Source of the DNA: Thermostichus vulcanus str. 'Rupite'
GTDB taxonomy: Bacteria; Cyanobacteriota; Cyanobacteriia; Thermostichales; Thermostichaceae
Assembly (NCBI RefSeq): GCF_022848905.1
Contig: NZ_JAFIRA010000018.1
Coordinates: 1-60,167, forward strand
DNA: 60,167 nucleotides
Direction of reading: 5' to 3'
The notes under the pieces were generated by a model. It ran no database searches and was not told where the DNA came from. It saw only the letters and a list, made by a program, of their open reading frames with translations. Shown in pieces: positions 46,681-55,695 of the stretch; within the stretch, counting starts at the first letter, position 1, and every line of letters starts with the position of its first letter. The translations under genes and the position numbers were made by a program.

Positions 46681-47286
46681 CTAGGGGCCGAGCAAATCGG
46701 CGGCTCCACTGCCAGGAATCAGTAAGCGCTCCACCGGTTCAGGAGTAGGGCGGGTGGGAGCCGGATCAACATCGCTGGGAATATACAACGCGGTCGGGTT
46801 GGGATCCCCGCCAAAGGCCAGCAAAATGGCCTCCAAAAGGGCTTGCCGCTGTTGCCGGGTCAGAGACTGCACCACCGCTTTATCTTGGGCATAGGGATTG
46901 ACGGTCAGCCGGTCAGCACCAGGGTAGCGCTGGGCAATGATCGGCTCGTTGGCATCAAAGTAATCGGCTATCGTCAGCTGCCAATCGAACCGATCCGTAG
47001 GGGAACGGCCCGCCACCTGCAGGTGATACACCATCATCCGCCGCACCAAGGTATCCTCTTCGGGTGGAGGGCCCGTGCCATCTGGAGAGGCTGGGGTATA
47101 AGTATTCTCCAGGGGAAAATCCGGCAAAAGGCTGTACACCTGCCGAGCTGCCTCTGGGATCAAGCGCAACTGGGCCTGTACCGGCCAAGCTCCCCAAGCC
47201 AAGCTAAGAAGGATCCCCAAGGTGATGCTCGCAAAGGGAAGTCGCCGCTGTTTCACTTGTTTCATCCGGAAGGATCTCTGAATCAT
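46681..47286 (-). CDS. secreted hypothetical protein
   Basis: 201 aa from 47286; an ATG at 47265 (MKQVKQRRLPFASI) gives a more usual signal peptide start. A basic n-region, the hydrophobic stretch ITLGILLSLAWGAW and PVQAQ form a Sec signal peptide, with cleavage after VQA. The mature part is about 160 residues, with a central domain (DWQLTIADYFDANEP, TRQQRQALLEAILLAFGG) and Pro-rich ends. No known domain is recognised. It lies 24 bases downstream of herA on the same strand. Confidence 0.65.
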   Translation of the reverse strand: MIQRSFRMKQVKQRRLPFASITLGILLSLAWGAWPVQAQLRLIPEAARQVYSLLPDFPLENTYTPASPDGTGPPPEEDTLVRRMMVYHLQVAGRSPTDRFDWQLTIADYFDANEPIIAQRYPGADRLTVNPYAQDKAVVQSLTRQQRQALLEAILLAFGGDPNPTALYIPSDVDPAPTRPTPEPVERLLIPGSGAADLLGP

Positions 47287-47310: not shown

Positions 47311-49035
47311 CTAATCGATACTCAAGCCTTCCACCCTCTGAGCTTGAGCACGCGGCTTCAAAGGGGCTGATTGAGCCAGCCGCTCCCGTTCACGGTGGGC
47401 CTGAAAGTGGTTTTGCCAGAGGCCGAGAATATCCAAAGTTTCCCCACCATGCTGCGTGTAGCGTTGCCGCACTTTACACAAAACAGGAGTATTCACACAC
47501 ACACCAGAGACAATGACCTGACCTTTGCTCAAGGCCGGTAATTCTTGCATTAAATCTCGCCCGGCAGCCTCGACGCTGTGGCGCAGATTTTCCTGGTCGG
47601 CAGGGTTGACAATTCGCATCAAAAATTGGCTCATGCACTGGGACAGAATATCAGAATCGAGTTTGCCAGGACGCTGAGTGATTAACCCTACCCCCAAACC
47701 AAATTTGCGTCCTTCGCTTAGGATCGTCCGCAACACCTGTTTACATCGAGAGGGATCATGAGCAGGGGCAAAGCGATGGGCTTCTTCTAACAAGATAAAG
47801 ACAGGATAGGGTAAATAGTTTTCATCAGCAGGGTCGATCTTGCCTTTGTGGGTATTCATGCGGGCATGGTTGGCTTGACGCAAAATAGCGGCAGCGATCA
47901 CCTGTTGTTCTTCCTGGCTGATCTCGTTCATTTGCAAAATGGTGACTTGCCCTGGTTCAAACAAGTCCTTGGGAGCCAAATGCTCCAGATTACTAAAATA
48001 AGGGGAGCGATCAATTTGCTCCAATTTCCACTCCAAAGCTGCTGCTGAGGATCCCTGGGATCCATCTTCTGAGGAATCCGCTTCGTTCACGGCATCAATG
48101 AGATCCTGGACTGTCCAGCGCACTGGATTGAAATGGGTCGTGTTGCGAAAGGCTTTTTCCAAAAACGATTTCTGACGATCTGACATTTCCGGCAATAAAG
48201 TCAAAATATCGAAGAAATTGAGGGAGGAAATGCGAATTTTAATCTCTTGTGGCGAAAGCACTTTCACTTTGGGCCGATACCCGTCTTCCCCCAAAAAGCG
48301 AGGATGAGACTGCATCTCCGCCAGGGTGTTGTATTCCCCGTGAGGATCGAAAATCAAGACGGCTGCCCGGTTCTTAGGTAACAACAATTCCTCGATCAAC
48401 ACCCCCGCCGTGTAGGACTTGCCGGATCCCGTCCCGGCCAAAATGGCCAGATGGGTACTGACCATCTCCTTCACGTCCAGAACTACCGGCACAGCTCCCT
48501 CATCCCGCAACAGCAAACTGCCCAAATGGGCCCCCCCAATCGCCATCTCATCCCGCTTGTTCAAGACCGATTTCAGGAGCTGATCAGGAGCTAGAAAAAC
48601 CTTGGCACCCGGATCCGGGGCACGACGGGGATTGATAAAGCCCATGGCCCGATGGAAATAACCGATCACTTCAACGGTGACGGCATAGATTTCTGGGTTG
48701 GGGTGGGTAAAGCCCACTAAGGCCACAATCGCACTTGGGTCAATTTCGGTATCGGCAAAAATGCGGTCGGGAATATGATCCAACAGTTGTACTTGGCCAA
48801 TTTTTCCCAGGATTTGTAACAACCGCGATTGGGGATCCCGAACTTCATAATAGACAAACTCACCCACCTTCACCGCTTGGGTATTGGAGGTGATGAAGAC
48901 GTATTGATTGGAAGTTTCTCCTGGTCCTTTAACGGTGCCAATCACCTCTGGAGCGTTATTGACTACAGAAAGGGCAGTCTCTTGGTAATGCCCATTGCTG
49001 GACTGTTCAGGGATCCCTGTAGATTTTTTTGACAT
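47311..49035 (-). CDS. herA: HerA-like DNA translocase ATPase
   Basis: 574 aa. The N-terminal part (about 25-130) fits a HAS-barrel. Walker A is AGTGSGKS (200-207), followed by IFDPHGEYNTL. Walker B is VFILLEEAHRF (412-422), with the sensor-like GLITQRPGKLD. HerA hexamers pump DNA and load and activate NurA nuclease during end resection in archaea and some bacteria. The start codon overlaps the stop of the 197-aa gene by one base (TAATG). It is the last gene of the mre11-rad50-nurA-x-herA run. Helicase or translocase activity is inferred from the family. Confidence 0.9.
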   Translation of the reverse strand: MSKKSTGIPEQSSNGHYQETALSVVNNAPEVIGTVKGPGETSNQYVFITSNTQAVKVGEFVYYEVRDPQSRLLQILGKIGQVQLLDHIPDRIFADTEIDPSAIVALVGFTHPNPEIYAVTVEVIGYFHRAMGFINPRRAPDPGAKVFLAPDQLLKSVLNKRDEMAIGGAHLGSLLLRDEGAVPVVLDVKEMVSTHLAILAGTGSGKSYTAGVLIEELLLPKNRAAVLIFDPHGEYNTLAEMQSHPRFLGEDGYRPKVKVLSPQEIKIRISSLNFFDILTLLPEMSDRQKSFLEKAFRNTTHFNPVRWTVQDLIDAVNEADSSEDGSQGSSAAALEWKLEQIDRSPYFSNLEHLAPKDLFEPGQVTILQMNEISQEEQQVIAAAILRQANHARMNTHKGKIDPADENYLPYPVFILLEEAHRFAPAHDPSRCKQVLRTILSEGRKFGLGVGLITQRPGKLDSDILSQCMSQFLMRIVNPADQENLRHSVEAAGRDLMQELPALSKGQVIVSGVCVNTPVLCKVRQRYTQHGGETLDILGLWQNHFQAHRERERLAQSAPLKPRAQAQRVEGLSID

Positions 49036-49628
49036 TAGCGCATCGCTCCCATGGTCATTTTCCAGGACAGTTCTTTGCTGAGGATCTGTAGAGCCCGTTG
49101 TTGAGCGGGATCCCCAAACATAGGGGTAATATCATTCAACACTTGATAGATCAGATGATCGGCAAAGTTGCCACCACTACTTAACAGCAAACCGTAATAG
49201 GAAAATTGAGTTTGTCCTTGCGGATCCTGATGAAAGCGTAAGACTTCCTCTTGGCTCATGCGAAAAACAGGTGTATTGACAGGCACAACCACACGCGGGA
49301 TCCCTTGGTTTCCATAGCCATGCTGTCCATCCAATGCTCCGATTAAAACCACCGAAAGCAAGGTGCGCACCTCGTTTTGCAAATCAGGGGAGAAATAGGG
49401 GTTCGGCTCACTGGATAAACGTGGTCCTGAGTTAAGGAACATCGGGTTTACAAGCTGCGTGTTGTAGACCAAGCCTACAGCCCAGTGCCGTTGCTCACTT
49501 TCTAGCTTGACAAAACTCCCAAAGCCATAGTCATCAGGTGCTGGAGGATTTTTCACTTCCAAAACATCATCCACCTGTACCACATAGTCGCAGTGATTAT
49601 TAGAGCGAACCACTTTGCCCAATCTCAT
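49035..49628 (-). CDS. 197-aa protein between nurA and herA
   Basis: I do not recognise it by name. The N-terminal stretch (MRLGKVVRSNNHCDYVVQVD, then FGSFVKLESEQRHWAVGLVY) has the strand pattern of a HAS-barrel, the small domain found at the N-terminus of HerA. The rest is alpha/beta with a conserved-looking GIPRVVVPVNTPVFRMSQEE. Its ATG lies in ATGA overlapping the nurA stop by four bases, and its stop overlaps the herA start by one, so all three are translationally coupled. This makes a NurA-HerA bridging or clamp role attractive. That role is inference. Confidence 0.85.
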   Translation of the reverse strand: MRLGKVVRSNNHCDYVVQVDDVLEVKNPPAPDDYGFGSFVKLESEQRHWAVGLVYNTQLVNPMFLNSGPRLSSEPNPYFSPDLQNEVRTLLSVVLIGALDGQHGYGNQGIPRVVVPVNTPVFRMSQEEVLRFHQDPQGQTQFSYYGLLLSSGGNFADHLIYQVLNDITPMFGDPAQQRALQILSKELSWKMTMGAMR

Positions 49629-50818
49629 CGGATTCGCCTCCGTTGCAGTTTACTCACAGTTTTGCGAGACAGCCTCAGGTTGAGTTTCTCACGGGCTGCC
49701 CAATCTTGCATCAGACGCAAAAACAGGTTGCGATCTTCACTGCGAATCAGAGCTGTTTGGTCGGCGGTTTCGATAACATAAGGGTAACCTCGGCCAATCA
49801 CCACTTCACAGCGAACAATATCCACCAACCAGTCCAGCAAGCCCGCTTCATAAACCCAAACGGGAATCTCCAGGCGAGCCGGGAAGTTATCGCTAGTCCG
49901 TAGGTAAACAAACCCAATCTGTTCTCGCATTTCTTGGTAGCGATTGAGGATCCCCTCTTGCGGATTGAGGCTACCCCCACGGGCACAGATAAAAAAGGGC
50001 GTGCGATCCCCCCAATCCAGCCAGGGGCTAAGCAATTGAGCATCATGAAGTTGTGGGGCCTCGGGCAAATCAAAGCAGTGTTTCAGCAATGAAACCAGAT
50101 CTGAAGTATAGGTCGTGTCAATGTAACCCACCAAAGGGATCCGGTTTTGTTGGCTGGCACGCAGCACCGGTAAAAGGCACTGCACGTAAAAGTCTTGGGT
50201 TTCCGGCTCAAACACTTCCGCAAACGTGGCTACTAAGGCCCCATCCAAAAAGGCCACTTTCCGGGATCCCTGCTTGGATTGCTGAATATACTCATGTAAC
50301 CTTTCGGTTTCCATTTGAAAGCGACGTTGATTGACAACTCGTTCTTTTGGCTCCCCGCTGCTGGTTGCTCCCAAATCCGTTGGAGTCAGCACATCCACTT
50401 GAATATCTTTTTCATAACTGCCTGCAGCGCAGTGATAATTTTCGTACCAGCCAATCTGCACCAAAGCAATGGGAATAGAAAGATCCTTACTGGGGTAGAT
50501 CTGGGATCCATCTACTGCAAAGGTAGGAATATCTCGAATGACCGACTTAACCCATTCACAGCTTTCTTCGTAGTTGGCCCACTCGTGGGCAAAAGGCACC
50601 TTCCAACTTGGATACAGATCCCATTCAGCCGTAGGTAGAGCCCCTGGGAATGCCCATGTGGCTGTCTTTTCTGCGATCTCTAATCCCGACCATTTACACA
50701 ATTGCTCCATGGCCTGCTTGTACAATTCTCGTCGTTCCGACAGACCAGTATCAAACGCGGTAAAAGCTTCCCGCTTTTGATCCAGAACGGCGAGGATCCG
50801 ATCGGCTCTAAGCACCAT
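49625..50818 (-). CDS. nurA: NurA-like DNA end-resection nuclease
   Basis: 397 aa from the ATG at 50818, preceded by AAGGAGGG at nine bases. The frame is open to a TTG at 50851 but that start lacks a ribosome binding site. NurA motifs: Asp103 in TFAVDGSQIYPS, Asp192 in VAFLDGALVATF, then VGYIDTTYTSDLV and the late IGRGYPYVIETADQTALI. NurA is a 5'-3' nuclease of RNase H fold that acts inside the HerA complex. It overlaps the end of the Rad50-like gene by 11 bases and the following gene by four. Confidence 0.88.
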   Translation of the reverse strand: MVLRADRILAVLDQKREAFTAFDTGLSERRELYKQAMEQLCKWSGLEIAEKTATWAFPGALPTAEWDLYPSWKVPFAHEWANYEESCEWVKSVIRDIPTFAVDGSQIYPSKDLSIPIALVQIGWYENYHCAAGSYEKDIQVDVLTPTDLGATSSGEPKERVVNQRRFQMETERLHEYIQQSKQGSRKVAFLDGALVATFAEVFEPETQDFYVQCLLPVLRASQQNRIPLVGYIDTTYTSDLVSLLKHCFDLPEAPQLHDAQLLSPWLDWGDRTPFFICARGGSLNPQEGILNRYQEMREQIGFVYLRTSDNFPARLEIPVWVYEAGLLDWLVDIVRCEVVIGRGYPYVIETADQTALIRSEDRNLFLRLMQDWAAREKLNLRLSRKTVSKLQRRRIR

Positions 50819-53800
50819 GGGAGGGATCCCTCCTTCTTGCAATCGGGTCAAAGTTTCTTTCTACCCGGATGATATTCTCCGTCACCTGTTCAAAAGTATC
50901 GTCATGGCTAATAACAAATAATTGTTGGAAGGAACGCAAATTAGTAATCGCCTCTGCCAGTCGCTGTCGTCGCTGTGCATCCATATTCGTGGTGGGCTCA
51001 TCAAAGAAGGCAATATCCAGTTGTCCTAAGACCTTTAATAAAGCCAGTCGTACAGCCAAGGCTGCACACATTTGCTCTCCTCCAGAAAGGCTGGCAAAAC
51101 GTCGTTTGGTGCTGCTGCCCTCTTGCACTCGAATTTCGTAGTCTGGTTCCCAAGTTAGGCTGACATTGGGACGATTCAGAATTTCTCGAAACAGTTGATC
51201 GGCAGTATGGTTAACTTGTTGTAAGTAATGTTGAGTAATTTGTGGGCCAGCTTTTTTATAAACCTCTCGACTAAATTTGATAAACCGATGTAGCCGCTCC
51301 TTTTCAGCCCGTTCTGCGTCTACTTCCTTAAGACTATCTCTCACTTGCTCTAGCTGTCGGATCTTTTCCTGTATCTTGCTAAGTTGAGAGGTAAGACTTT
51401 CCAGATGGGCTTTGGCTTCTGCTTCTTTTACTCTTGCCGCTTGTAGTAGCGCTTTATGGCTTTCGTAGTCTTCTGGTTGAAATTGGGAAATTAGTGGATC
51501 CCGTTGCGCCTGAAGCTGGGCCATTTGAGTTTGGAGGGTGTGCCATTGTCTTTTCAGATTCTCAAGCGCTTTTTCTCGCTCGGGCAGCAGTCGAGCAATC
51601 GGTTCAGCTTGAAGATAGCTTTCGTGGCTGGAGCGATAGTGATCCCGCTGTTGTTGCAGGGATCCAATCTCCTGCTCTAGATGTTCACTTGCCAAAAGAG
51701 ATTTTTGCAGCTGTTCGAGTTCTAGCTGAATCTGTTGCCGTTGCTGTAGATAATCGGCTTGGCTGCGTAAATAGTCAGCCTCGGCCTTAAGTTCTAGCCG
51801 TAAACGTTCTGCTTGCCCACGGGGATCCCCTAAAGCTCTCAGGGATTCCCTAAGCTGTTCCAATTGAGTGCGGGTTTCTTCTGCCGTTCCCCACTCCTGT
51901 TCCCATTGATTGATCTGGGCTTGCTTTTGTTGACCTTGGCTCTGAATTTGGTTTAATTCTACTTGAGCTATCTGCAACTCCTGTTGTCGCTGAGCCAAAC
52001 TTTTCGCTGTCTCTAGCGAAGTAATGACCTTTTCATAACCACTGCGACAGGTTTTCTGCTCTTCTTTGAGAGAGAAGATTTTTTCTTCAATGTCCTCTAG
52101 AAGTTGCAGTTGTTGATCCAAGTCTTGAATATCTGCAAGAATAGGTTCCATCTGTTTGGTAATCTGTTGCCACCTTTGTTCAATTGGGGCTTTCCTTTCG
52201 AGTTCCTTTTTCAGTCGTTTGAGTTGTCCTCGAGGATCCCCTTGTTTTTGTAGCTTTTCGCCCAATTCCTGCTGTTGACGAATAAAGGTAGGCTCCGCCT
52301 CAAGACTCCAATGAATATCCTCGATTTGGCTTTGCAGTTCTGTCTGCGCTTGCAGGAGCTGTTGTCTGTGGGACTCCAACTCAGGAATTTGCCTTGTCAG
52401 ACCTAGCAGAGGTTGTATCGTCTTTAGTTCCTGCTGTAAATCTAAAAATTGCTGATGCAGTTGGGCTTCGGCTATCTGAGGGGTGAGATCTTGCAAAATA
52501 TGCTGGATGGATTGAAGGAGGTCTTGACTGAGGGCCGAAGACTGGCTAAGTATATCCGGGATCCGTTTCCAAAGTCCTTCCCATTCTGGGTTTTGTCTCC
52601 GCTGTAACTCCAGATCTTGAAGCAGTGATTGAATGGTTTGCTGCTGATGTTGGAAACGATTTTTTCCTTGCTCCAATAAGATCCGCAGTTCTTGGTGAAA
52701 TTGTTGAGCGGCTGCTATACGACTGAGTTGGATTTGAAGGCGTTCTTGTTGAGCTTCCAATTCAGGGATCCTGGCAACTTGCTGCAAATAACCTCGTCTT
52801 TGCCGAAGTGTATCCTCTAGCTGTTGGAGTTGTTGCTGAAGATGCACTTGCTCTGTTTCCTTTTGCTTTAGCTCCAGACGCATTGATTGGAAAGGTGTTA
52901 GTTTCTTTTCGATTTCCAGCAATTGTTTCTCCAGGGATTCTTGCTGTTCTATAAGAGGGTTTAGGCTGTGAATTTCTTCCTCAATGTGTTGAAAGGCAAG
53001 CAGCTGTTGTTTATATTCAGCTTCCTGAATTTGCAAGTGATGTAGTTCCTGAAGTCTTTTCTCCCGTTGGCTGCCCAAGCGATTCCGGGTTTGCTGATCA
53101 ACTTCTGCCTGAGCAATCTGAATTTCCAGATCCTGGTACCGAGTATAGGCAGGTTGATGCTGATGACAAATGGCTGATGCTTTTTCGGCCTCCTCTAACC
53201 GCCTCTGAAGAAGTTGGCACCGCTCCGATTGAGTTGCCCATTCTCCTCGCAGTCGTTCTAATTCCATTTGCCATTCCAACAGCCTATTCAGGTGTTGGGT
53301 TAAACGAACCTGCTCAGCCTCCAAATTCTGTTGAGTCTGTAGTTTGGGGCTTAGGTCTTTGAGTTCCTGTCTCCATTCCTGTAACTGCCTGAGTTTCTCT
53401 TCTAGTCTGGCTAGTTCTGTATCGATGGCCTGTTGCTGGGAGAGTAAGTGATCCCGCTGCTTGAGCCAAACAAACCGCTGCTGTTGCTGCTTTTCCAAAT
53501 CCCGCAATTGGGCTTCTGCTGCTAAAAACAGTTGGGATCCCTGAAGGCATTGATCCCGTTGCGCCTGGGCTTTCCGGGCTTCTTGAAGGAGAGTTTCAGC
53601 TTGTTTCTGACTCGCTTTTAGTAAGGCTTCCTGCTGTTCTCCTTCCCGCAGTTGTTGGTCTATGATTTGAATTTGACTGAGTAGGCTCTCTAATCTTTCG
53701 AGTTGGACTTGGGCTTGTTGAATAATCTGGGTTTGCTGCTGAAGCTCTTCTTGCCAATAGGACAAATCACGTGCTAACTTTATCTGTTCTTCTTGAAGGG

Positions 53801-54404
53801 GATCCCAATCCTGAATTTGCTGATTAAACAGCTCTATTTGGTGCTTAATGTCTTGAATCTGCGCTTCACTGTGTTTTTCCACTGCAAGCAAGTCTTTTGC
53901 CACTGTCTGATACTCTTCGACTTTCAAGATTCGGTCGAATACGTCTTTTCGATCTCGACCGGTTTTCAGAAAATCTGCCGTAAATGTTCCTTGTGGTACA
54001 CCAATCGTAGTTGCGAACAAACGAGCCAGATCAGTGCCTGGGGGCACTCCCAAGTGCTGCCGTAACCAAGGCAATACATCCACCTTGCGCTCATAATCCA
54101 GTCGTTGGTTCAGTTGAGGGTCAAACAGCCGATATCCCTGAGTGACACTGCGACGAACCATGTAGGTACGCTGATCCGCTTGGGAGACAAACTGCACCGT
54201 TACAACCGCATCACTAGCCCCAACTCGAATCATTTCTTCTTGACTGTAGGGGGAATAATCAAATAAAGCCCAAGCAATTGCCTCTAGAATACTGGTTTTC
54301 CCGGCCCCATTTTCTCCACAAATGGCATTGGTGCCTGGTTCAAATTCAAAGGCTGTATCCACATGAGACTTAAAGTTTTGCAATGCCAAAGAGAGGATGC
54401 GCAT
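50808..54404 (-). CDS. sbcC: Rad50/SbcC-like SMC ATPase
   Basis: 1198 aa from the ATG at 54404 (MRILSLALQNFKSHVDTAFE). An in-frame start nine codons earlier overlaps the upstream gene. Walker A is CGENGAGKTS (about 29-38), and the Q-loop region contains IGVPQGTFTADFL. Two long coiled coils of very Gln/Glu/Leu-rich sequence span about 170-1010. The signature is SLSGGEQ near 1105, with Walker B and D-loop in IAFFDEPTTNMD. No CxxC zinc-hook motif occurs anywhere in the protein. It forms the ATPase part of the Mre11-Rad50 complex that processes DNA ends. Confidence 0.92.
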   Translation of the reverse strand: MRILSLALQNFKSHVDTAFEFEPGTNAICGENGAGKTSILEAIAWALFDYSPYSQEEMIRVGASDAVVTVQFVSQADQRTYMVRRSVTQGYRLFDPQLNQRLDYERKVDVLPWLRQHLGVPPGTDLARLFATTIGVPQGTFTADFLKTGRDRKDVFDRILKVEEYQTVAKDLLAVEKHSEAQIQDIKHQIELFNQQIQDWDPLQEEQIKLARDLSYWQEELQQQTQIIQQAQVQLERLESLLSQIQIIDQQLREGEQQEALLKASQKQAETLLQEARKAQAQRDQCLQGSQLFLAAEAQLRDLEKQQQQRFVWLKQRDHLLSQQQAIDTELARLEEKLRQLQEWRQELKDLSPKLQTQQNLEAEQVRLTQHLNRLLEWQMELERLRGEWATQSERCQLLQRRLEEAEKASAICHQHQPAYTRYQDLEIQIAQAEVDQQTRNRLGSQREKRLQELHHLQIQEAEYKQQLLAFQHIEEEIHSLNPLIEQQESLEKQLLEIEKKLTPFQSMRLELKQKETEQVHLQQQLQQLEDTLRQRRGYLQQVARIPELEAQQERLQIQLSRIAAAQQFHQELRILLEQGKNRFQHQQQTIQSLLQDLELQRRQNPEWEGLWKRIPDILSQSSALSQDLLQSIQHILQDLTPQIAEAQLHQQFLDLQQELKTIQPLLGLTRQIPELESHRQQLLQAQTELQSQIEDIHWSLEAEPTFIRQQQELGEKLQKQGDPRGQLKRLKKELERKAPIEQRWQQITKQMEPILADIQDLDQQLQLLEDIEEKIFSLKEEQKTCRSGYEKVITSLETAKSLAQRQQELQIAQVELNQIQSQGQQKQAQINQWEQEWGTAEETRTQLEQLRESLRALGDPRGQAERLRLELKAEADYLRSQADYLQQRQQIQLELEQLQKSLLASEHLEQEIGSLQQQRDHYRSSHESYLQAEPIARLLPEREKALENLKRQWHTLQTQMAQLQAQRDPLISQFQPEDYESHKALLQAARVKEAEAKAHLESLTSQLSKIQEKIRQLEQVRDSLKEVDAERAEKERLHRFIKFSREVYKKAGPQITQHYLQQVNHTADQLFREILNRPNVSLTWEPDYEIRVQEGSSTKRRFASLSGGEQMCAALAVRLALLKVLGQLDIAFFDEPTTNMDAQRRQRLAEAITNLRSFQQLFVISHDDTFEQVTENIIRVERNFDPIARRRDPSHGA
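50820..50833 (-). promoter_or_regulatory. nurA: palindrome containing the nurA ribosome binding site
   Basis: GGAGGGATCCCTCC is a perfect 14-base palindrome lying one base before the nurA start codon and inside the last codons of the upstream gene's neighbourhood. In the mRNA, GGAGG can pair with CCTCC around a GATC loop and hide the Shine-Dalgarno sequence. Ribosomes finishing the upstream gene would open it, which would couple translation. Confidence 0.5.
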
Positions 54405-54405
54405 A

Positions 54406-55695
54406 TTAGTCTTCCTCCCCCAGAAAAGCACTGCTCAAATAGGCGTAAATCTCTGATTCCTCTTGACCATCCAACACCTTTTCTTTGAGATCTAGCAACA
54501 GGCGAGCCAGCTCAACACTGCGCTTACGATAGTGGGAATGGCCACTCAGCAGATCGGTATAGATCTTCTCCTCAATTTGAAGCCGTTGACCTTCTTCTTC
54601 CAAGGTTATGGCGGCGGATCCCAGTTCTACAGGGGTTGCCTCGAAGCGAAACAATAAAATCAAGGCTCCAGTTACCTGTTTCAGTTGTCTCTGCAGGGCA
54701 CGGACATCCAGGTCGTGTTGGGTAAAGCCCACCTGCCCCACCAGGCGAACTTCCACAATTGGCTCAGGCTCCTCTGCGGGCAAACGGGATCCTTCTGCCA
54801 AGGCCAGTAGGGCAGCAGTGACCTGTTCTGGGGTTTCTTTCCCCTTCACCTCCAGACGTAGCCTTTGACAGGGCCGCTGATAGTAGTCCCGCACCAATTC
54901 CGCTTGCGGTTCTCCAGATCCCCATGTGACTCGGTAGGCACCCCGCTCAAAGTCCCATTCGGCGGTGCTGTTGGCCTCTAGGGATCCCGGATTGAACACC
55001 CAGCCCCCCTCAGAGTAGCTTTTGTGAATGTGCCCCAAAGCCAGGTACCCTACCCCTGCTTCCCGCAGCGGCAACAACTCCTTATAGCGCAAAGCCCCCT
55101 GATACCGTGCGATTTGCCCTTCCAAGCCGTGATGAAACATGAGGATCACCTGTTCTGGGCCGGGGGGCAGCTGACGAATCGCCGCTGCCAACTGCTCGAT
55201 TGACTTGGGGGCTGCCGACCCATACCACTGGGATCCAATCACTCTCACCCCACAGGGCAAATCCAAATAAGATCCTCTACGGGCTTGCTCTGACCAAGGC
55301 TGCAAATGGATCCCCTCTTCCTCTTCACTGGGCTCTAGCAAAATCAGTTCCCCATGATCTGCTAAGTAGCGCAGCCAGCTGGTTTTCACGCCAAAAGGTC
55401 GATTGTCATGGTTGCCTTCGATGGCCAGCACTGGGATCCCTGCCTGTTTTAGGGCCCTTAGTACAATCTGAGCCTGATTAAGTACCCCTGGCTGAATTTG
55501 GCGATGCTCAAACAGATCTCCGGCGATGACCACAAAATCGACTGGATTCTGAATCGCATGGCGATGCACCACATCCCGAAAAGCCAAAAAGAAATCCTTA
55601 CTTCGTTCCGGGCTATCATAACGGTCATAACCCAGGTGAACATCAGCCAGATGCAGAAAGGTGCAGGTTGATCGGGCCATGACAACAAATCCCAT
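54406..55695 (-). CDS. sbcD: Mre11/SbcD-like nuclease
   Basis: 429 aa from ATG 55695 with AGGA upstream; ATG 55680 (MARSTCTFLH) is an alternative. All metallophosphoesterase motifs are present: LADVHLG (Asp18, His20), AGDLFEH (Asp60), EGNHDNRP (94-97), FHHGLEG (187-190) and GHIH (221-224). The remaining 200 residues form the cap and a Rad50-binding helix region near the C-terminus (SVELARLLLDLKEKV). It is a Mn-dependent exo/endonuclease for broken or hairpin DNA ends. It is the first gene of the run; its stop is one base before the Rad50-like start. Confidence 0.94.
   Translation of the reverse strand: MGFVVMARSTCTFLHLADVHLGYDRYDSPERSKDFFLAFRDVVHRHAIQNPVDFVVIAGDLFEHRQIQPGVLNQAQIVLRALKQAGIPVLAIEGNHDNRPFGVKTSWLRYLADHGELILLEPSEEEEGIHLQPWSEQARRGSYLDLPCGVRVIGSQWYGSAAPKSIEQLAAAIRQLPPGPEQVILMFHHGLEGQIARYQGALRYKELLPLREAGVGYLALGHIHKSYSEGGWVFNPGSLEANSTAEWDFERGAYRVTWGSGEPQAELVRDYYQRPCQRLRLEVKGKETPEQVTAALLALAEGSRLPAEEPEPIVEVRLVGQVGFTQHDLDVRALQRQLKQVTGALILLFRFEATPVELGSAAITLEEEGQRLQIEEKIYTDLLSGHSHYRKRSVELARLLLDLKEKVLDGQEESEIYAYLSSAFLGEED

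Follow-up and report, generated by a model that had tools for sequence, protein, structure and literature searches.

Gene content and layout of the operon

We analysed a 60,167-nucleotide stretch of DNA from the cyanobacterium Thermostichus vulcanus str. 'Rupite' (contig NZ_JAFIRA010000018.1; hereafter the window), in which five minus-strand genes are packed in the order mre11, rad50, nurA, a gene for a 197-amino acid (aa) protein, and herA. The initial annotation of this DNA had claimed this order, and all four junctions that it gave proved exact: mre11 and rad50 are separated by a 1-base gap, rad50 and nurA overlap by 11 bases, nurA and the 197-aa gene by 4 (ATGA), and the latter and herA by 1 (TAATG). 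We refer to the 197-aa product as the HAS protein, after the HerA-ATP synthase (HAS) barrel, a fold common to the N-termini of HerA and F1-ATPase that it is predicted to adopt. The features of the locus, in window coordinates, are as follows:

54406-55695, minus strand: mre11, archaeal-type Mre11 nuclease, 429 aa (424 aa with the alternative start, ATG 55680)
50808-54404, minus strand: rad50, archaeal-type Rad50 ATPase, 1198 aa, without a CXXC zinc hook
52425-52727, minus strand: centre of Rad50 (about residues 560-660), where the zinc hook is expected; conserved helical segment (25-row alignment, AlphaFold2)
49625-50818, minus strand: nurA, NurA nuclease, 397 aa (PF09376)
49035-49628, minus strand: HAS gene, stand-alone HAS-barrel protein by predicted fold, 197 aa
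47311-49035, minus strand: herA, HerA hexameric ATPase/translocase, 574 aa (DUF87)
48655-48939, minus strand: putative N-terminal HAS barrel of HerA (residues 33-127), a weak Pfam HAS-barrel match
48415-48435, minus strand: HerA Walker A, GTGSGKS (residues 201-207), kept in at least 97% of 34 aligned rows

Profile searches of Pfam and NCBIfam bore out all four of the proposed identities, Mre11, Rad50, NurA and HerA. The product of 49625-50818 is NurA (Pfam PF09376, 2.4e-51) and that of 47311-49035 is HerA (Pfam DUF87, 1.4e-54), while Mre11 matched Pfam Metallophos (8e-14) and Rad50 matched AAA_23 (9.5e-23) and SbcC_Walker_B (3e-7). The archaeal NCBIfam models far outscored their counterparts (Mre11_Pyroc 1e-32 vs sbcd 9e-12; Rad50 8.5e-67 vs sbcc 2.5e-27; helicase_HerA 2e-60 vs antiphage HerA 2e-27), none of them attaining the equivalog cut-off; the SbcC and SbcD models were thus not the best match of Rad50 or Mre11. 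Among sequences of solved structures, the nearest to Mre11 was that of P. furiosus (1.8e-30; E. coli SbcD, 1e-4), the nearest to Rad50 an archaeal Rad50 (2.4e-29; a Thermotoga entry, 1e-13) and the nearest to HerA that of T. kodakarensis (9e-45, PDB sequence search). As judged by sequence similarity, Mre11, Rad50 and HerA are therefore closer to archaeal relatives than to E. coli or Thermotoga relatives with solved structures.

Residues expected of active enzymes are retained. The phosphoesterase motifs of Mre11 (DxH, GDxx, GNHD, GHxH) are conserved in the alignment, acidic residues D103, E170 and D192 of NurA are kept in at least 97% of 26 rows, and the Walker A, Walker B and arginine-finger regions of HerA are conserved across 34 rows. 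HerA residues 33-127 matched the Pfam HAS-barrel profile over nearly its whole length with an E value of 0.015, which falls under the curated cut-off. PADLOC returned no match for Mre11, NurA or the HAS protein; Rad50 and HerA matched many of its models as superfamily members.

The fifth gene encodes a predicted stand-alone HAS barrel

The 197-aa protein had no match in Pfam or NCBIfam. An AlphaFold2 model built from a 60-sequence alignment (predicted local distance difference test score, pLDDT, 82.7) consists of a beta barrel spanning residues 1-123 and a helical tail, and shows no ATPase domain. All 50 matches listed by Foldseek belonged to HerA or to the TdpAB complex (best E 2.7e-6, a HerA chain). 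VIA-align likewise ranked a HerA N-terminus at the top (Z 13.1, 111 residues, root-mean-square deviation 2.9 A, 17% identity), with F1-ATPase barrels next after the HerA N-termini. By its predicted fold, the protein is thus a previously unnamed, stand-alone HAS barrel. The description of the operon as an archaeal-style set holds in that the four named proteins are clustered; the set itself comprises five proteins rather than four.

Residues G4, S9, D14, P29, F36, G52, P81, L95, G97, P111, F132, H133 and Y144 of the HAS protein are invariant in the sampled cyanobacterial and haloarchaeal rows. Its gene lies between nurA and herA in the source family, in genome G075 of another class of the phylum and on haloarchaeal plasmids; it adjoins herA in G092 and G103, and directly precedes nurA in G027. 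A phage origin was rejected, there being no match to the protein in 50,697 phage records. Just upstream of the HAS gene and on the same strand, 18 loci (e.g. L038) carry one conserved family that by eye resembles a phycobiliprotein (allophycocyanin) subunit; this recurrent neighbour of dispersed HAS genes appears incidental.

The five genes occur together across Cyanobacteriia

We searched the same 59 Cyanobacteriia genomes for each of the five proteins, treating as near-finished the 24 genomes with 10 or fewer contigs. HerA, NurA and Rad50 of the window type were found in the same 41 of the 59 genomes and were absent from the same 18. Mre11 was missing from 2 of the 41, as was the HAS protein from 2, all of these being fragmented assemblies (320-720 contigs). 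Among the near-finished genomes, 13 of 24 hold all five proteins and 11 hold none. Every pairwise co-occurrence over the 59 genomes gave a Fisher p value of 3e-13 or less, a test that ignores shared ancestry. Each of the 15 families represented by two or more genomes was uniform for the module; in 20,000 shuffles, 8.9 families were mixed on average, and no shuffle left every family uniform. The five genes therefore occur, mostly dispersed, in ~70% of the sampled Cyanobacteriia.

Within the class, the full five-gene cluster was seen only in the source family, namely in same-genus loci and in one same-family genome, and so the gene order is present in relatives. Genome G008, from the same order, has two separate groups, nurA-HAS-herA and mre11-rad50. 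In other Cyanobacteriia the genes are mostly dispersed, and the HAS gene stands alone in 74 of 80 named loci. Another class of the phylum has the HAS gene in three genomes, once as nurA-HAS-herA and twice as HAS-herA. In one family herA lies within ~2 kb of recO (G037:C1:627187-630997, G018:C1:555647-559455).

With so many families carrying it, the module is linked neither to thermophily nor to this particular organism, and we rejected the idea that it is thermophile-specific. That this genus recently acquired the module from archaea is likewise disfavoured, as the HerA tree, which was midpoint-rooted and has the haloarchaeal rows on long branches, follows taxonomy by nesting genus, family, order, class and phylum.

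Haloarchaeal megaplasmids carry the same gene order

Searches of 72,556 plasmids matched the HAS protein on four haloarchaeal megaplasmids only, from Natrinema zhouii, Halobaculum marinum, DL31 and Halorussus salilacus, and these were also the only plasmids with close HerA or NurA matches; the haloarchaeal survey covered plasmid records. On all four, the order mre11-rad50-nurA-HAS-herA is identical to that of the window (the Halorussus copy crosses the record origin, and its nurA is unannotated). Identity to these copies is 40-42% for the window HerA and 27-30% for the HAS protein. Because the cluster recurs in relatives of the source organism and in the same order on four megaplasmids, it is not a chance arrangement.

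Two of the four copies directly follow a Shango-type helicase gene. In Natrinema zhouii (L219:4830-10880, L216), the five genes come immediately after SngA, SngB and SngC of Shango; in DL31 (L217), a gene for an SngC-like helicase lies upstream, and genes for a GajB-like UvrD and a DNA methyltransferase lie downstream. For these plasmid-borne haloarchaeal copies, a defence role is plausible.

Cyanobacterial Rad50 lacks the zinc hook

The ABC head of Rad50 is complete, with Walker A (GENGAGKT), signature (SGGE) and Walker B (FFDEP). The zinc hook of Rad50 has been described as highly conserved (PMC6969161). We found its CXXC motif in 0 of 26 Rad50 rows of the module (the window and 25 more of the class, some perhaps the same genome from two collections), in 920-aa and 1200-aa forms alike. 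The same test detected CPLC in 10 of 10 bacterial-type SbcC open reading frames (ORFs) of the class, and a CPTC hook is present in all 3 haloarchaeal plasmid Rad50s checked. Since these haloarchaeal relatives retain it, the simplest interpretation is that the cyanobacterial line lost the hook. A helical segment is conserved at the centre of Rad50 in a 25-row alignment, and AlphaFold2 modelled this region as all helical with modest confidence (pLDDT ~74-80, four sequences only). With the hook lost, something else would have to join the Rad50 arms; a hookless Rad50, if true, would mean that the zinc hook can vanish from a whole lineage. Rad50 (50808-54404) is longer in the source lineage (~1200 aa) than in most other cyanobacteria (~920 aa); the additional length sits in the coiled coil, and the motif GDPRGQ is present twice.

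A proposed five-subunit DNA-end processing machine

Taken together, these findings lead us to propose that the operon probably encodes an archaeal-kind Mre11-Rad50/HerA-NurA machine for processing DNA ends, with the HAS-barrel protein as a fifth subunit. Counted in its favour are the family identities, the overlapping or abutting genes, the all-or-none occurrence, the HAS-barrel fold, the siting of the HAS gene next to nurA or herA, the conserved catalytic residues of NurA and HerA and the lower frequency of RecB/AddA-length genes where the module is present. Judging from their families, Mre11-Rad50 would recognise and open broken ends, after which the HerA hexamer would thread the duplex through its ring and pass it to a NurA dimer, which sits on the ring of HerA's own HAS barrels. 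NurA would then digest the DNA so delivered, as is known for archaeal and Deinococcus HerA-NurA, and this resection of double-strand ends would precede RecA loading. In the published complexes, a HerA hexamer carries a NurA dimer on its HAS ring (2:6), the HAS domain being the NurA-binding part and the two activities interdependent (PMC9960219). As the HAS protein has the fold of this part of HerA and no ATPase domain, we place it at the HerA-NurA junction, where it may act as an adaptor, an extra ring layer or a gate. More tentatively, the operon may represent a distinct class of DNA-end machine, in which a free HAS barrel, joined to the HerA ring or capping it, alters NurA loading, and in which cyanobacterial Rad50 dimerises without zinc.

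The machine is a good candidate as the principal route of double-strand-end resection in the source genome. Searches with PDDEXK_1 and UvrD_C (RecC, RecF and RecN were not searched for) revealed no RecB/AddA-length gene, since the sole PDDEXK_1 match lies in a 330-aa ORF and UvrD_C matched just two ORFs, 794 and 761 aa long. RecO is present, the basis on which RecFOR-type repair is probably there (RecF and RecR lay outside the search). The initial annotation had suggested the main end-processing system of a thermophilic phototroph, and had named recB, addA and recO as genes to look for; its suggestion is supported in that no RecB/AddA-length gene was found, and weakened in that RecO is present and the module is not linked to thermophily. 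RecB/AddA-length genes occur in at least 2 of 41 genomes with the module vs at least 7 of 18 without it (p 0.002, phylogeny ignored).

Several points weigh against the proposed machine or its role in resection. RecO implies that another recombination route exists, and the RecB/AddA comparison takes no account of phylogeny and compares lower bounds. Comparison of the HAS protein with HerA N-termini by hhalign was not significant, even when haloarchaeal and non-Cyanobacteriia rows were included, and the scores were no better than those to unrelated controls; a sequence-level link between the two was thus not detected, and the HAS assignment is a structural one. In T. kodakarensis, HerA-NurA breaks down both DNA strands, and the authors of that work are doubtful that it functions in resection (PMC12977600). 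Deletions of nurA or herA in T. thermophilus grow normally and are more UV-resistant, according to work cited in PMC7776575. The main doubt concerns biological role, and arises from the both-strand degradation in T. kodakarensis and the Shango neighbours in Natrinema zhouii and DL31.

Alternative explanations

These same observations bear on the possibility that the five proteins form a nuclease machine against foreign DNA (phage or plasmid defence), like several bacterial HerA systems, which we consider unlikely. The location of all four haloarchaeal copies on megaplasmids fits such a role, as do the Shango genes that the Natrinema zhouii copy follows and the helicase, UvrD and methyltransferase genes flanking that of DL31. 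An antiviral role was suggested for T. kodakarensis HerA-NurA (PMC12977600), and that report cites defence systems in which HerA pairs with Sir2 or DUF4297. However, neither Sir2 nor DUF4297 is among the five proteins, the partner of HerA being NurA, and HerA is nearer to archaeal repair HerA models than to antiphage models (NCBIfam). The HAS protein is without a match among phage records, and comparison of neighbouring genes turned up no defence gene that recurs, a by-eye judgement rather than a PADLOC scan. Moreover, the agreement of the HerA tree with sampled taxonomy and the uniformity of all 15 families sampled more than once, matched in none of 20,000 shuffles, favour a housekeeping function in cyanobacteria. 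A defence role there is unlikely, and the alternative suggestion of the initial annotation, a defence module, finds no support in cyanobacteria.

It is also rather improbable that the locus is a plain archaeal-type Mre11-Rad50-HerA-NurA resection operon, with the HAS protein a dispensable accessory such as an assembly factor or inhibitor. Apart from the Rad50 hook, all four core proteins are canonical, and published HerA-NurA complexes function without a HAS-type subunit (PMC9960219, PMC12977600). Yet the HAS gene accompanies the other four in every near-finished genome that has them, and has been retained next to nurA, herA or both in bacteria as well as archaea. Finally, the dispersal of the genes in most other cyanobacteria might mean that their clustering is recent and functionally meaningless, genes of unrelated pathways having been brought together; the identical order on haloarchaeal plasmids and the all-or-none occurrence even of dispersed genes already disfavour this explanation and make it highly improbable.

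Relation to known systems

To our knowledge, herA precedes mre11 in thermophilic archaea, and no HAS gene is present. The classic archaeal herA-mre11-rad50-nurA operon of Sulfolobus, Pyrococcus and Thermococcus (PMC8708640, PMC2288612) resembles the window in grouping four homologous proteins in one cluster, whereas the window adds a HAS-barrel gene and has a Rad50 without the zinc hook. The haloarchaeal megaplasmid operon matches that of the window in all five genes and their order; it differs in lying on plasmids, in the Shango locus or helicase beside two of four copies and in the CPTC hook of the three Rad50s checked. Deinococcus radiodurans NurA-HerA is a comparable bacterial pair with a HAS-ring interface, for which the available text describes no HAS gene (PMC9960219); that organism has no Mre11-Rad50 (PMC12977600), and its HerA was absent from the PDB sequence matches of the window HerA at E 0.001. 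Work on T. thermophilus also exists (PMC5448004). Bacterial SbcCD shares the Mre11-Rad50 superfamily, but profiles put the window pair with archaeal Mre11 and Rad50, and hooked SbcC-type genes occur separately in the class. Defence systems such as Sir2-HerA and HerA-DUF4297 likewise pair a HerA ring with a nuclease or an effector, in contrast to the NurA partner, lower antiphage-HerA similarity and vertical inheritance seen here.

Our literature search, which did not cover the likeliest 2004 papers, did not turn up any account of a HAS barrel as a stand-alone partner, of these five genes in this order or of a Rad50 lineage lacking the hook. A 2016 survey of cyanobacterial repair genes describes recBCD chiefly for the marine picocyanobacteria, and HerA, Mre11 and SbcC go unmentioned in its main text (PMC5101192). 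Double-strand-end processing in most cyanobacteria is poorly known, and an all-or-none module in ~70% of those sampled would be a strong candidate for it. The same-order haloarchaeal copies, together with this occurrence, point to an overlooked DNA-end machine, whose HAS subunit would offer a new handle on how HerA recruits its nuclease in repair and defence alike.

Neighbouring and related genes

A secreted-looking 201-aa protein with no family match (window 46681-47286) is encoded 24 bases past herA. It is kept in several same-genus loci; as its distance to herA varies, it is probably no part of the machine. The PF09376 NurA model matched the Haloferax volcanii control genome; this species is said to have neither HerA nor NurA (PMC7776575). 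The source genome also encodes a second, divergent NurA (contig C5:34965-35792; also L001:1384-2577), overlapping a gene that we read from its sequence as 6-pyruvoyl-tetrahydropterin-synthase-like. Relatives of this paralogue are found in most Cyanobacteriia, including genomes without HerA, where it must act without this HerA.

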